Assembly: GCF_900101475.1 (NCBI RefSeq)
Contig: NZ_FMZV01000017.1
Location: forward strand, 1-64,000
Origin: Ruegeria marina
GTDB taxonomy: Bacteria; Pseudomonadota; Alphaproteobacteria; Rhodobacterales; Rhodobacteraceae
Length of the DNA stretch: 64,000 nucleotides
Direction of reading: 5' to 3'
How positions within the stretch are numbered: position 1 is the stretch's first letter; every line of letters begins with the position of its first letter. The position numbers and the translations under genes are program-made. This document shows positions 4,184-13,148 of this stretch, one piece after another. The notes beneath the pieces are model-generated. The model saw only the letters and a list, made by a program, of their open reading frames with translations, was not told the origin of the DNA and did no database searches.

Positions 4184-7100
4184 CTAGGCAGAAAGATCTT
4201 CCAACGCTTGCTCGATCCGGTCGAGCATGGGCGAGGACCCTGTGGGCGCAATCAAGCGATGCGCGGTCCTGAGGTGTTCGACAGCTTCCTTGTTGCGCTT
4301 CTTCATCTTGCAGAGCAGGCCAAGGATCATCTCTCCGCGCGCAAAATAGTGACCGTCCTGATCGTATTGCGGATTTTGCCTTGCCTGTTCTATCAGGGCC
4401 GCGATCCGCTTTTCTCCGAAAATCATCACGCCCAACAAGGTTCGAAAGTTCCGTAGCAACACGCCTATCGACGCCCCACCTTCGCCCGACAGGATCTGAA
4501 GATAGACTTCGCTCAGGAACAACCGATTCCAGTCGGCACCGATCTGCATCCCCTCTGCCTGGCGCAGGTTGATCGTGTTTTCGATCTGGCGCAGGCCCTC
4601 GGCCACGCGGCCTTCCATCGCCAGGCCCACGCCCAACATGGTCTGAGGAACGCCGCTGAACAGCGTGCAACCGTCTGCCGCGCTCCTATTTACATAATCC
4701 TTTACGGCCTCAAGGGCGCCCGGTTTTTCAAGTGCGACCAGCGCGGCCACGCGCGAGGACTCTGCGATTGCCGTTTCGAATTCGGCCCGGGACAGGCTCA
4801 GGGCCTCTTCGGACAACTCCAATGCGGCCTGATGATCGTCGGTCACCACTGCGACAAGCGCTTTCATGGCCTTTCCGTAACCCAGCGCCCGCGGATCGTT
4901 GTTCTTGACGCCGAATTCGATCATGCGCTCGGCCGTGTCGCGCGCACCCAGGACGCGCCCTCGGGTCAACTCGTTCCAGCCAACAGTCGCAAGGTAGAAG
5001 TTCTGTAGATAGGCATCGTCGAACTTTGTGAGTGCAGCTTCGATCTTCTTTTTTCTGGCCTCGAATTCTGCATTCGTGATGGGTGCGCTGTAAATGGCCA
5101 CGGAAAGCTCGTTTACCATCGCATAAGCCAGGGATTTGGGATCGCCCAGGCGTTCGGCCATCTGTGTCAGCTCCCGCTGGACACGCAATGCCTCGTGAAA
5201 CTGGCTGTTGCAGACAAGGCAGGAAACATAGTGGTGCAGAAACAGGACGTGATCGCCATTGTCCCCGATCCTATTCAGGATCGGCCGAATTCGAGGCGCC
5301 AGTTCGATCATGGTCATCACGTCGAGCGAGATGTTCGAACACAGCGCGTAGTTGCCCAGGAATTCGGAGAAGGCTGCGTCGCTGGCGCAGCCCGGATCCT
5401 TTTCATAGAGTTCCAGGGCCGCAGCAAAATACCGATTGGCCTGATCATGTGAAAACACACCGAGGCTCTTTGCCCCCGCAAGCGCGGTATAGCGAAAGGC
5501 CATATCCGTGCGCGACGTCTGGGAATAGTGATGCGCCAGCATTTCGGCCGCTTCGGGCAGCCGGTTGGCATTGCGCTTCTCCAGAGCCTCGGCAATGGCC
5601 AGGTGAAGCTCTGACCTGCGATCAGCCAACAGGCTCTGATACACGGTGTCCCTCAGCAGGACATGCTTGAACATGTAGTCGGACGAATTGTCTTTCCGGT
5701 GAACGACGTCGAGCGCCTGCAACCTTTGAAGGACCGAACCCGTTTCATCCGATTGTTCGACGACCATCGACAACAGGCCGGGATCGAACTGCCTACCGAT
5801 TGCAGCTGCTGCTTGCAAAACCATGCGGTCGGCGGGTCGAAGCTGTTCAATACGCGCGAAAAGCAGGTTCTGCATGCTGGACGGCAGGACGCCGTCGGCA
5901 GAGCTGGTGTCGAACTGAACTTGTCCATCAACGATCTTCAGCGCGCCATTCTCGATCAGATAGGTCAGAATCTCTTCACCGAAAAGAGGATTCCCGCCAG
6001 AGCGCTCGATCACCGTGCGGACCAGCCCGTCAGGCAGGGATTCGACCTGCAACCGGCTTTGTGCAAGGTGGCGGATATCGTCTTCTGACAACGGCTGGAG
6101 CGCCAGTGTCACAGTGGCCGCGGACTCGCGCCAGGCCGGCGTATACTCCGGCCGTCGGGTCGTGATGATCAGCAAGTTGGCGATCCCGCCGTCGGCAATC
6201 AGCCTCCGCAGCATGTCTTCCGAAGCGCCGTCGATCCAATGGATATCCTCGATCAAAAGGATCACGGGCCCGATCTTGCATTGAGCCTTGAGCAGATTGG
6301 GCAATAAATCGCGTGTGCGCAAACCGATCAGAACCCCATCAAGGCCATCAAGCGCACCCTTTGGAGGCTCAAGGCCAAGGAGGTTCATCAAGAGCCCGAG
6401 GTTTTCAGCGGTGTCCAGCCCGGTAACTTGAAGCCCCGTCCGAAGCTTGCCTTCAATTTCCGCTGGCTCATCTTCGTCCTGGATCTGGAAGGAAGTTCGA
6501 ACAACTTCGATGAACGGCAGGAACGGAACCTGCTCGCCAACCGCAGTGCAGTGACCAGTGAATATTTTCGCGGCTTTCGATTTCTCGCTGCGCAGGAATT
6601 CGAACACCAGCCGCGTCTTGCCAAGGCCCGGTTCCGCGACGAGATCGACCACACGAAGGCTTGACCCAGCCGCGTCATATGCGTCTGCAAGGGCCGAAAG
6701 CTCGGCTTCGCGGCCAATGTACCGGCTCAACCCACGGCCGACCGAAGCGTCAAACCGGGTAGTGCCGTCCCGCAAGGATTGCAGCCGCCAGAGCTTTTGC
6801 TGCCGGGCCACGCCTTTGACTTCGTACTCGCCTTCAAAGCTCAGATCGACGCGCCATTCGACAAGCCGTCGGGTGTTGTCGCAAATCAGGCACCCGCCTT
6901 CGGGCGCCAGCGACTGAATGCGCGAGGCGAGGTTGACGGTATTGCCGACCGCCGTCAATTCACCCTTTTCGCCCTCGACTGCGGCAACGACGACTGAACC
7001 CGAACAGATGCCGACACGCAAGACGGGGCGTACTCCAAAACGGCTCTCGATATCGTCAGCGGCATTCGCGAAAGTTTGCTGGATCGCAATGGCGGTCCCG

Positions 7101-7372
7101 CAGGCCCTCAGCCCGACTTCCTCGATTGCCTTGGGAATACCGAAGATGGCCATGATGCTGTCGCCGGCAAATCCGCGTACCGCACCGCCGTGTTGCTGGA
7201 CTACGGCGGTCAGCATTTCGTACAGCATGCGGGTGAAGAAAACGGCCTTTTCTTCGCCGAGTTTATCGATCGTCGCAGTGTAGTCGACCATGTCGGTAAA
7301 GAGCACCGACACCAATCGCCTCTCAGGTGGGCGCTTTGACGGGATTCCGTCGATTTCGGCAGCATCAACCAT
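4184..7372 (-). CDS. Adenylate/guanylate cyclase with AAA-type ATPase and TPR region
   Basis: A 1062-aa cytoplasmic multidomain protein. Residues about 20-185 are a class III nucleotide cyclase domain: LFTDMVDYT with metal Asp27, FAGDSIMAIFG with Asp71, and TAVGNTVNLASRIQ. Residues about 215-470 are an orphan AAA/STAND-type ATPase with Walker A EPGLGKTRL (about 248-255) and Walker B ILLIEDIHW (about 371-379). The remainder is helical and TPR-like. This architecture is common in Rhizobiales and Rhodobacterales; signals are usually unknown. ATG 7372 is preferred over GTG 7390. An inverted repeat GTTAA-N6-TTAAC (7373-7388) lies directly against that ATG and could be an operator. It lies downstream of the lactonase gene on the same strand, 147 bp away. 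Confidence 0.88.
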   Translation of the reverse strand: MVDAAEIDGIPSKRPPERRLVSVLFTDMVDYTATIDKLGEEKAVFFTRMLYEMLTAVVQQHGGAVRGFAGDSIMAIFGIPKAIEEVGLRACGTAIAIQQTFANAADDIESRFGVRPVLRVGICSGSVVVAAVEGEKGELTAVGNTVNLASRIQSLAPEGGCLICDNTRRLVEWRVDLSFEGEYEVKGVARQQKLWRLQSLRDGTTRFDASVGRGLSRYIGREAELSALADAYDAAGSSLRVVDLVAEPGLGKTRLVFEFLRSEKSKAAKIFTGHCTAVGEQVPFLPFIEVVRTSFQIQDEDEPAEIEGKLRTGLQVTGLDTAENLGLLMNLLGLEPPKGALDGLDGVLIGLRTRDLLPNLLKAQCKIGPVILLIEDIHWIDGASEDMLRRLIADGGIANLLIITTRRPEYTPAWRESAATVTLALQPLSEDDIRHLAQSRLQVESLPDGLVRTVIERSGGNPLFGEEILTYLIENGALKIVDGQVQFDTSSADGVLPSSMQNLLFARIEQLRPADRMVLQAAAAIGRQFDPGLLSMVVEQSDETGSVLQRLQALDVVHRKDNSSDYMFKHVLLRDTVYQSLLADRRSELHLAIAEALEKRNANRLPEAAEMLAHHYSQTSRTDMAFRYTALAGAKSLGVFSHDQANRYFAAALELYEKDPGCASDAAFSEFLGNYALCSNISLDVMTMIELAPRIRPILNRIGDNGDHVLFLHHYVSCLVCNSQFHEALRVQRELTQMAERLGDPKSLAYAMVNELSVAIYSAPITNAEFEARKKKIEAALTKFDDAYLQNFYLATVGWNELTRGRVLGARDTAERMIEFGVKNNDPRALGYGKAMKALVAVVTDDHQAALELSEEALSLSRAEFETAIAESSRVAALVALEKPGALEAVKDYVNRSAADGCTLFSGVPQTMLGVGLAMEGRVAEGLRQIENTINLRQAEGMQIGADWNRLFLSEVYLQILSGEGGASIGVLLRNFRTLLGVMIFGEKRIAALIEQARQNPQYDQDGHYFARGEMILGLLCKMKKRNKEAVEHLRTAHRLIAPTGSSPMLDRIEQALEDLSA

Positions 7373-7519
7373 GTTAATCAATGTTAACACGACAGTTAGT
7401 GTTTCGGCTACTCTCCAACGAGAAGATCAACACCTCCGATCCCCACGGCAACACGACCGCCAGTAACCGCGTGGCGACAACATTCGATTCTCGTCTTGTG
7501 ACCTGGCCCTGTCACCCTG

Positions 7520-11584: not shown

Positions 11585-12106
11585 TTACTCGGGTTCCGCC
11601 AGAAGCTCTTCCATGAACAGGCTCAACAACTGGGTCCGCCCGTCCACCCCCGCCTTGCCATAGATGGCAGCGGATTGGGCCCGTATGGTGCCCACGGCCC
11701 GGCCCCTTATGCCCGCGATGCTCTCGTTGTCGAATCCCTTGAGGATCATCAGCGCGACATCGCGCTCCGCGGGTGTCAGCCCCCAATCGGAGAAGAACGC
11801 CTCGATCACCTCCGCCATCTCGCCACGTGCCGCCATAAGACTGGCAGTAACGCGCTCCATCCGTGCCAACAATTGGCGCAGTTCGACAATCAGCACGCCC
11901 AGTCCGAACACCAGAACCAGGGCGACGAAGCCTTCCAGCCACAAATGGCCCGGCGCCTGCCCGTCGCCGGCATAAAGGTCGAACACCACATCTCCGATGA
12001 AGAACAGGGCGCACAGAGCCTGAATGACGACCATCCAGGCCAGAACCGCAGCCCGGCGTTCATCGGGTCCGCCGGGCCGCAGCAGTTTGCCTGCCGTGGC
12101 GTTCAT
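11585..12106 (-). CDS. Membrane-anchored LuxR-type regulator
   Basis: A 173-aa protein with two predicted transmembrane helices (about residues 21-42, AAVLAWMVVIQALCALFFIG, and about 57-75, LEGFVALVLVFGLGVLIVE). A short coiled region follows, then a C-terminal LuxR/GerE helix-turn-helix (about 108-165): LTPAERDVALMILKGFDNES, then TIRAQSAAIYGKAGVDGRTQ. DNA binding from a membrane anchor suggests direct sensing of a membrane or periplasmic state. Its ATG overlaps the stop of the cytochrome b561-like gene (ATGA), which strongly links the two. It is last in the PepSY-b561-LuxR operon. No receiver or autoinducer domain is present, so phosphorylation or homoserine lactone control is unlikely. Confidence 0.83.
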   Translation of the reverse strand: MNATAGKLLRPGGPDERRAAVLAWMVVIQALCALFFIGDVVFDLYAGDGQAPGHLWLEGFVALVLVFGLGVLIVELRQLLARMERVTASLMAARGEMAEVIEAFFSDWGLTPAERDVALMILKGFDNESIAGIRGRAVGTIRAQSAAIYGKAGVDGRTQLLSLFMEELLAEPE

Positions 12107-12669
12107 TTTACCGGCCTGTCGCGGGCCACCGCCTTGCGCCCGTCGATCATCGCCCGCACCAGGGGCACGCCGGTCCGCCACTGGTCGAACAGGACACCGC
12201 CGACATGAAGCGCAACCGACACCATCAGCCAGCCATAGGCTGCCTCGTGGACTTCTTCGACCCATTCGACGCCAAAAAAGGCGACCGTGCCCATCATGAT
12301 CCCGGTTATCGACAGGACCAGCAAGGTGAGCCAGAGATTGTAGGCCATCAACGCCCCCAGCGGGTTATGTGACAGATGCACGGCCCGGTCCCCGCCCAGC
12401 ATGTCCCGCACATGTGCCAGTGCCGCAGCGGGAGACGGGGGAAAGGCCGCGAACCGTGCCATTCTCGGCCCCACGATACACCACAAGAGGCGCAGCACAA
12501 CCAGACCCAACACCACGTAGCCGACTTGCTCGTGCAGTGTTCCTTCAGGGTCCGTGAGGGCAGCGTTCAACAGAACGCCCAAGGCAACGCCCCAATGGGT
12601 GATACGTACCAGCGGGTCCCAGACCCTGTATTTGCGGGCGCCAGGGCGCCCGCCGCTGTTCATGGACAT
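12103..12669 (-). CDS. Cytochrome b561-type membrane diheme protein
   Basis: A 188-aa inner-membrane protein with four hydrophobic helices. Histidines suited to heme b ligation lie in RITHWGVALG, TLHEQVGYVVL, HLSHNPLGA and in the last helix (EVHEAAYGWLMVSVALHVGG). This is the pattern of b561 / hydrogenase-type cytochrome b subunits, which move electrons across the membrane between periplasmic and quinone or cytoplasmic partners. The ATG at 12669 lies 6 bp after the PepSY stop, and the next gene overlaps by 4 bp. No hydrogenase or molybdoenzyme partner is nearby, so its electron donor is unknown. A second ATG sits two codons in. Confidence 0.85.
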   Translation of the reverse strand: MSMNSGGRPGARKYRVWDPLVRITHWGVALGVLLNAALTDPEGTLHEQVGYVVLGLVVLRLLWCIVGPRMARFAAFPPSPAAALAHVRDMLGGDRAVHLSHNPLGALMAYNLWLTLLVLSITGIMMGTVAFFGVEWVEEVHEAAYGWLMVSVALHVGGVLFDQWRTGVPLVRAMIDGRKAVARDRPVK

Positions 12670-12675
12670 GGCCGG

Positions 12676-12930
12676 TCACTTCGTCTCGATCTTGACAACC
12701 TTGCCGGTTGCCGGGTCGACATAGACTTCAGCCATTTTCTTGTCCTTGACCACATAGGCCTCGATCTTGCCGTCCTCGGCCTCGACCTTGCGCACGTCGT
12801 AACCAAGGTCCTTCAGGCTGGTGCGAACGGCCTCCTCGGTCGTGCCCAAAATGGTGTCGGTGGTCATCTCCAAGGCGAACAGGGGGCCAGCGGCCAGAGC
12901 CATCACGGCGACAAGGGACAGGGTTCTCAT
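12676..12930 (-). CDS. Small secreted PepSY-domain protein
   Basis: An 84-aa protein with a Sec signal peptide (MRTLSLVAVMALAAGPLFA, cleavage near residue 19). A single PepSY-like domain follows: EEAVRTSLKDLGYDVRKVEA, KIEAYVVKDKKMAEVYVDPA, then TGKVVKIETK. Such small periplasmic proteins often accompany membrane cytochromes or sensor systems and may bind a ligand or shield a partner. The ATG follows GGAGAAACCG. It is first in the three-gene operon with b561 and LuxR, 218 bp downstream of petC on the same strand, with the petC terminator in between. Confidence 0.85.
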   Translation of the reverse strand: MRTLSLVAVMALAAGPLFALEMTTDTILGTTEEAVRTSLKDLGYDVRKVEAEDGKIEAYVVKDKKMAEVYVDPATGKVVKIETK

Positions 12931-13091
12931 TCCGGTTTCTCCTTTTCATCAGCGCAGACGGGTGTTCCAACTGCGTGAATTCAAACTGACCTCATCCGCT
13001 ACTCTGCACCATTTGCCGGGGGCTTATGCGCCGGAAACAAGCGCGCGCTGATGTCGACGTCCGGCCGATACACAGCATCTGCCGGCGCAAC

Positions 13092-13122
13092 GAAAAACCC
13101 CCGCAACCTGGGCTGCGGGGGC
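13092..13122 (-). terminator. Intrinsic terminator of petABC
   Basis: Read on the minus strand: CCCCCGCA, an 8-nt loop, TGCGGGGG, then TTTTTCG. It begins 27 bp after the petC stop and separates the petABC transcript from the PepSY-b561-LuxR operon. Confidence 0.88.
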
Positions 13123-13148
13123 TGGTCTTTCGGAACCAGTGAAAGGGC

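Follow-up and report, generated by a model that had tools for sequence, protein, structure and literature searches.

A recurrent PepSY, cytochrome b561 and LuxR-type regulator gene unit in Ruegeria marina and its candidate operator

Introduction

PepSY domains and membrane-bound hemes are united in a single chain in the PepSY_TM proteins. According to the available part of PMC13038864, members such as FoxB and CrpH combine transmembrane helices carrying two bis-His hemes with periplasmic PepSY domains and function in transmembrane electron transfer. Operons for membrane cytochromes b have also been described in other settings. In the SHP/diheme operons, membrane cytochrome b genes are accompanied by a regulator that can be of several types, and where a particular type of kinase is present, so is a periplasmic accessory protein; in the available sections of PMC2909971 these operons provide a precedent for a cytochrome b operon with exchangeable regulators. 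A further likeness is offered by LcoA and BcnA, a b561 paired with a small periplasmic protein; the partner there is a lipocalin, not PepSY, and the accessible text of PMC9113575 makes no mention of PepSY. E. coli CybB (5OC0) and HyaC (4GD3) represent the PF01292-type cytochromes b whose histidines align with those of the protein described here. On the regulatory side, one-component regulators of the ToxR/CadC kind tether a DNA-binding domain directly to the membrane.

Here, we analyze a three-gene unit in the window, a stretch of 64,000 nucleotides from Ruegeria marina (NZ_FMZV01000017.1), which resembles each of these systems in part. Unlike in PepSY_TM proteins, PepSY and the heme-bearing helices are encoded by two genes, and the helices belong to the b561 family (PF01292). 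In contrast to CybB and HyaC, the b561 protein lacks a cationic patch on its P side and is linked to PepSY and a LuxR-type regulator. The Ruegeria operon differs from the SHP operons in having no c-type cytochrome gene and in being served by a membrane LuxR rather than a sensor kinase and response regulator. In the predicted regulator, a GerE/LuxR-type domain at the C-terminus follows an anchor of two helices that hardly extends into the periplasm, unlike in ToxR/CadC. Each part belongs to a known family. PepSY together with cytochrome b561, with or without LuxR, was not found in the open-licence literature searched.

Results and Discussion

Gene layout and protein families

The three genes follow petC (13943-13149) and a terminator-like hairpin, and are arranged as follows:

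13096-13123, minus strand: hairpin resembling a terminator, between petC and the palindrome described below
12930-12676, minus strand: PepSY_2 gene, 84 aa
12669-12103, minus strand: cytochrome b561 gene, 188 aa
12106-11585, minus strand: LuxR/GerE-type regulator gene, 173 aa

A gap of 6 bp separates PepSY from b561, and b561 and LuxR share an ATGA overlap at 12106-12103. This arrangement downstream of the petC terminator, as described in an earlier sequence-only reading, was recovered at exactly these coordinates. None of the three proteins had a match in PHROGs. Elsewhere in the window, a 1068-aa ORF on the minus strand (4184-7390) appears by eye to combine a cyclase-like domain with an ATPase-like remainder.

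The PepSY protein matched PepSY_2 (PF13670) at 2e-19 with 69.8 bits, above the cut-off of 24.3, and was the single match across its own 4.99-Mb genome. Its AlphaFold2 model (pLDDT 86.4) predicts one helix and four strands, and the protein is apparently exported, judging by eye from an N-terminal hydrophobic segment. A Foldseek search with the model returned nothing below E 0.001, the weak matches including BLIP-like and DUF2874 proteins. PepSY_TM membership was rejected, as PF03929 had no match in the genome.

The second protein matched Ni_hydr_CYTB/b561 (PF01292) at 1e-20 with 74.7 bits (cut-off 30.1). PF01292 had four matches in the genome, one of them partial (G000:C20:119515-119685, locus L004), with one TAG inside the matched frame. 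His25, His46, His101, His141 and His155 are invariant in all 17 aligned LuxR-linked relatives, and His25, 46, 141 and 155 align with His13, 45, 137 and 151 of the E. coli CybB chain 5OC0, in a numbering counted by hand. The first three of these CybB positions we take to be heme-ligand positions. The last, H151 of this superoxide oxidase (SOO), is a ligand of heme 1 in the available part of PMC11869295. The b561 protein would thus have four candidate heme-ligand histidines, in a four-helix membrane domain.

This likeness raises the question of whether the protein works as E. coli CybB does, as a superoxide:quinone oxidoreductase, and is induced by LuxR under periplasmic superoxide. The function of CybB is described in the same partial source (PMC11869295), and the relation to 5OC0, although remote (E 0.009), includes the four aligned histidines; however, the hydrogenase cytochrome b 4GD3 is the better match (4e-6). 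With the topology assumed, the two P-side loops of the window protein contain no Arg or Lys, leaving the SOO patch residues R30, R35, R38, R108 and K134 without counterpart. By net charge, a crude measure under the same assumed topology, loop 1 ranges from -1 to -4 in 16 of 17 relatives (+1 in L064) and loop 2 from -2 to -8 in all 17, compared with +1 and -1 for the matching SOO segments. The Q-site His158 of SOO aligns, by eye, with an acidic position. We rejected superoxide oxidase membership because the cationic patch that collects superoxide on the P side has no counterpart, and we regard a CybB-like oxidoreductase induced by LuxR under superoxide as very unlikely.

The third protein matched GerE (PF00196) at 5.9e-5 with 23.0 bits, just under the cut-off of 23.5, and all 31 scanned relatives matched GerE at E<=0.01. 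Its AlphaFold model (pLDDT 90.8, pTM 0.66) contains helices at residues 14-46 and 52-108, followed by four short helices (112-169), and was weakly matched by Foldseek to DNA-binding domains of the FixJ/VraR/RcsB/NarL type (best E 0.008, none below 0.001). A receiver domain is absent from the model, and Response_reg was unmatched in Pfam up to E 1. Nor was an autoinducer-binding domain matched up to E 1, which sets the protein apart from quorum-sensing LuxR regulators. Residues 74-172 align with the LIC13292 regulator (NCBIfam NF047608; 4.4e-18), but membership of that family was rejected at 65.9 bits against a cut-off of 200. The model agrees with the sequence-only reading of a regulator predicted to be held in the membrane by two helices, with a GerE-type DNA-binding end and no receiver.

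Conservation of the unit and exchange of its regulator

To place the unit among its relatives, we used the LuxR protein as a query. In a first sample, 57 of 101 genomes had matches at E<=1e-3, and 58 places at E<=2e-9 besides the window were fetched with their flanks. Neighboring genes in the LuxR-anchored and phylum-sample neighborhoods were called with a crude, home-made caller (GC3 score) that leaves starts uncertain and misses or miscalls some genes; PepSY, b561 and LuxR were therefore identified with HMMs over all ORFs, the PepSY HMM being built from these same loci. Among the 59 loci including the window, 20 had both PepSY and b561 (in L046, with b561 on the opposite strand), 26 had PepSY only and 13 had neither. 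In named genomes, the best 80 of at least 590 LuxR relatives comprised 50 loci with both genes, 20 with PepSY only, six with b561 only (two of which, L114 and L155, stop close to the end of a contig) and four with neither. The two sets overlap in four loci, L093 and L094 repeating L035 (G002) and L036 (G003). Two records are probably mislabelled: L107, titled Oceanobacillus, is identical to L041 from the window's own family, and L134, titled Exiguobacterium, groups with alphaproteobacterial loci in the tree.

Aiming at less circularity than in the LuxR-anchored search, we also searched with b561 alone. A match at E<=1e-40 was present in 55 of the 149 family genomes. Among the 74 matches listed, 17 high-ranking ones belonged to loci already collected and the 17 weakest were left out; the other 40 were fetched, two of which (L251 and L257) repeat the named loci L105 and L153. 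PepSY adjoins b561 in 38 of these 40 loci, and the membrane LuxR adjoins b561 in 18 (in two pieces in L248). Two loci, L276 and L279, have b561 without PepSY and instead carry a gene for a CxxCH-motif protein directly upstream. The sequence-only reading had named a lack of co-conservation beforehand as one result that would refute its proposal; the three genes do occur together elsewhere, in 20 of 59 first-sample loci and 50 of the 80 best relatives, and the b561-found set agrees. This recurrence in other genera, together with the sole PepSY_2 match in 4.99 Mb, argues that the arrangement is not due to chance.

The remaining 22 b561-found loci have a divergent response-regulator candidate (14 loci) or neither regulator (8 loci). 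Ten of the 14 candidates were scanned, and all ten were of the OmpR type with Response_reg and Trans_reg_C; the other four are assigned by sequence motif only. Similarly, of 13 PepSY-b561 pairs without this LuxR whose surroundings were inspected in the phylum sample, six (L203, L205, L206, L207, L210 and L211) have a Pfam-confirmed kinase and/or OmpR-type regulator, from a scan of ten proteins that included one spurious ORF. Near another pair, a GGDEF protein is encoded on the other strand (L209:5173-6498). Because two-component regulators, and perhaps a GGDEF protein, take the place of LuxR in this way, PepSY and b561 appear as a steady pair whose adjoining regulator is exchangeable. Of the signaling chain from PepSY through b561 to LuxR that had been proposed earlier, the co-conservation of the three-gene unit is supported; the chain is not an obligatory line, since PepSY-LuxR, b561-LuxR and PepSY-b561 with two-component regulators all occur.

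PepSY is the commonest neighbor of this LuxR family, at 46 of 59 first-sample loci. PepSY domains have a protease-inhibitor role. Their name derives from protease propeptides, as the Pfam description states. One could accordingly imagine PepSY as a protease inhibitor or chaperone protecting LuxR or b561, with LuxR switched by regulated proteolysis of its anchor. However, the predicted periplasmic turn between the two LuxR helices comprises about five residues (47-51) and would make a poor protease target, and in an incidental reading of the neighborhoods no recurrent protease gene was noticed. We consider such a proteolytic switch distinctly unlikely.

A second large branch of loci (L051:4335-6520, L061, L049, L060 and similar) encodes, directly before LuxR, PepSY proteins whose long tails are rich in Asp or Gly. 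These loci are without b561, sometimes have two PepSY genes in a row and, by eye, often have trpB nearby; they are possibly related to divalent cations.

Residues at the periplasmic edge of the LuxR anchor

Two residues flank the predicted periplasmic turn of the regulator:

11978-11980, minus strand: LuxR Asp43 codon, close to where helix 1 is predicted to end at the periplasm
11945-11947, minus strand: LuxR His54 codon, close to where helix 2 is predicted to begin at the periplasm

We compared 129 distinct LuxR sequences, kept from 139, and constructed a tree from them. His54 was present in 64 of the 72 LuxRs with b561 adjoining, in 9 of 43 with PepSY only and in 11 of 14 with neither. At position 43, LuxRs adjoining b561 had Asp (67 of 72) or Glu (5 of 72); Asp occurred in 8 of 43 with PepSY only, and one of the two acidic residues in 13 of the 14 that lack both neighbors. 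The b561-found set gave His54 in 17 of 18 LuxRs and Asp or Glu at position 43 in 18 of 18 (15/16 and 16/16 without the two repeats).

The window's LuxR falls in a clade of 60 members, supported at 99/95 by a bootstrap that had not settled, of which 51 have PepSY and b561, five b561 only and four neither; the PepSY-only loci form two main groups. On this tree, the coupling between b561 and His54 was not significant. Leaving out the loci with neither neighbor yielded 2 independent pairs, 1.7 changing the same way and 0.3 unchanged, and including them yielded 7 pairs, 1.7 the same way, 0.2 opposite and 5.1 unchanged. The association of Asp43 and His54 with b561 is a lead, not proof.

A candidate operator before the operon

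Alignment of the upstream regions of Ruegeria and its neighbors revealed one conserved block before PepSY in otherwise diverged DNA. It has the palindromic form GCTTA-N11-TAAGC, with an N12 spacer in others, a size that we take to be lux-box-like. The window contains the following version:

13022-13042, no strand assigned: GCTTG-TTTCCGGCGCA-TAAGC, candidate operator, 112 bp ahead of the PepSY start and differing from GCTTA-N11-TAAGC at one position

Allowing one mismatch, the palindrome was present in 41 of 68 three-gene upstream regions (27 exact), compared with 0.48 expected from shuffling, in a count where L093 and L094 repeat L035 and L036. None of 45 PepSY-only upstream regions had such a site (expectation 0.2). 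At two mismatches, however, 13 of these 45 had one, compared with 2.9 in shuffles, and because of this excess the clade boundary of the site may be less sharp than the zero suggests. Three PepSY-only loci (L149, L170 and L172) carry a variant palindrome, GTTTAT-N9-ATAAAC, before PepSY. Sorted by LuxR clade, the site was found at 38 of 50 three-gene loci of the window's clade, about 110 bp before the operon, and at none of the loci of three other clades (0/9, 0/13 and 0/34; 0/56 together), for which a de novo palindrome search also gave no convincing site.

In the named loci (754 kb in all), the zone 600-1400 bp upstream of LuxR, which was picked with the site already known, amounts to 64 kb and held 20 exact sites, compared with one in the remaining 690 kb; with one mismatch allowed, the counts were 36 and 8. 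Four LuxR loci with b561 but no PepSY carry the palindrome before b561 (exact in L143, L156 and L163; one mismatch in L122), and it is absent from all four window-clade LuxRs without b561. Of sixteen regions around b561 genes (including L214, with LuxR on the other strand), two held a one-mismatch site, neither directly before PepSY. Outside the discovery set, the palindrome was present at 6 of 18 LuxR-linked b561 loci, or 4 of 16 without repeats, counted irrespective of LuxR clade. The 22 b561-found loci without this LuxR had no upstream palindrome, the one stray site (L275) not being upstream.

In the window's own genome, the operon site is the single place with at most one mismatch to GCTTAT-N9-ATAAGC. 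With up to two mismatches to this 12-base pattern, the genome held 35 places compared with 68 for a reversed control, indicating no enrichment. Five Ruegeria genomes had 1, 7, 1, 3 and 3 places with at most one mismatch, compared with 3, 2, 2, 1 and 1 for the reversed control, all positions being counted without annotation; in G000 and G002, the sole place was the operon site. No further targets were evident in seven genomes in which sites were counted in the same way.

The palindrome might instead be bound by another conserved regulator, with the targets of LuxR lying elsewhere. A recognizable site is missing from 12 of 50 three-gene loci of the clade and from 12 of 18 LuxR-linked b561-found loci, as such an explanation would allow. 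However, the site follows the LuxR clade across families (Roseibium L101, Hwanghaeella L097 and Oceaniradius L127) and did not turn up upstream of PepSY-b561 pairs whose regulator is a LuxR of another clade or a two-component system, making a foreign regulator highly improbable. Because the palindrome tracks the LuxR clade, sits before the operon and, at up to one mismatch to the 12-base form, occurs at no other place in its own genome, autoregulation of the operon through this candidate operator is most likely. We report the palindrome here as a new observation from sequence comparison. A wider regulon with weaker sites may exist.

The petABC neighborhood

In the window, the unit lies next to petABC, and the sequence-only reading had tied it to respiration. 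petABC and mtaB adjoin 7 of the 20 first-sample three-gene loci, the window included (its own genome, G001-G004, G009 and G046), and petABC adjoins 3 of the 50 named ones (L093, L094 and L095, the first two repeating G002 and G003). Other three-gene loci adjoin, by eye, ssb and a lytic transglycosylase, perM and proS, RTX or gapdh genes. As petABC is an exceptional neighbor, a tie to the bc1 complex is not supported; the three-gene unit travels independently of bc1, and its link to petABC is incidental.

These counts weigh on the fuller proposal, in which a ligand or redox state is sensed by PepSY, electrons pass through b561 and LuxR relays the signal to a respiratory regulon tied to petABC. 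Such a chain would fit the co-conservation of the three genes, as well as the greater frequency of His54 and Asp43 beside b561 than beside PepSY alone. However, the petABC context is confined to the few loci above, LuxR also occurs paired with PepSY alone or with b561 alone, and no second palindrome target was seen in the Ruegeria genomes scanned. Instead of a respiratory regulon, the sole predicted target found was the operon itself, through the palindrome at 13022-13042. We therefore regard this proposal as unlikely.

A working model

On balance, we lean toward the view that the operon is a self-contained PepSY/b561 membrane electron-transfer unit with its own membrane-anchored LuxR regulator, which acts mainly on the operon through the palindrome. 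Because FoxB-type PepSY_TM proteins are two-heme transmembrane reductases with periplasmic PepSY domains, a split PepSY and b561 electron-transfer pair is the most economical guess. The periplasmic PepSY protein and b561 would act together as a split counterpart of the one-chain PepSY_TM heme reductases. Electrons would cross the membrane via two hemes, linking a quinone or the cytoplasmic side with a partner that PepSY binds or presents. LuxR would be a one-component regulator whose main target, by site comparison, is its own operon, presumably bound at GCTTA-N11/12-TAAGC. Its anchor might read the condition of this unit or of the membrane itself, probably near Asp43 and His54 at its periplasmic edge, and such a reading could alter dimerization of the long helix that bears the DNA-binding domain.

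Several observations count against this self-contained unit. No cofactor motif is evident in PepSY. Because LuxRs lacking b561 occur, the LuxR anchor can exist without b561; His54 is kept in most LuxRs that have neither neighbor, and the tree test was not significant. The recognizable site is missing from the clade and b561-found loci counted above, and the window's own site has one mismatch.

A more specific version of the model is a direct switch, in which Asp43 and His54 of LuxR read the heme or quinone state of b561 and the regulator, acting as a one-component system without a phosphorelay, adjusts its own operon, PepSY-b561 being served elsewhere by alternative regulators (membrane LuxR, OmpR/kinase and perhaps GGDEF). 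We put this version forward only tentatively.

The palindrome offers a direct handle on the system, with one short site, one regulator and one operon, and the genus includes strains that can be handled in the laboratory. If the switch does read the heme or quinone state, it would constitute a minimal redox-sensing route from the membrane to DNA. That LuxR is exchanged for two-component regulators around a constant PepSY-b561 pair suggests a periplasmic redox activity of wide occurrence.
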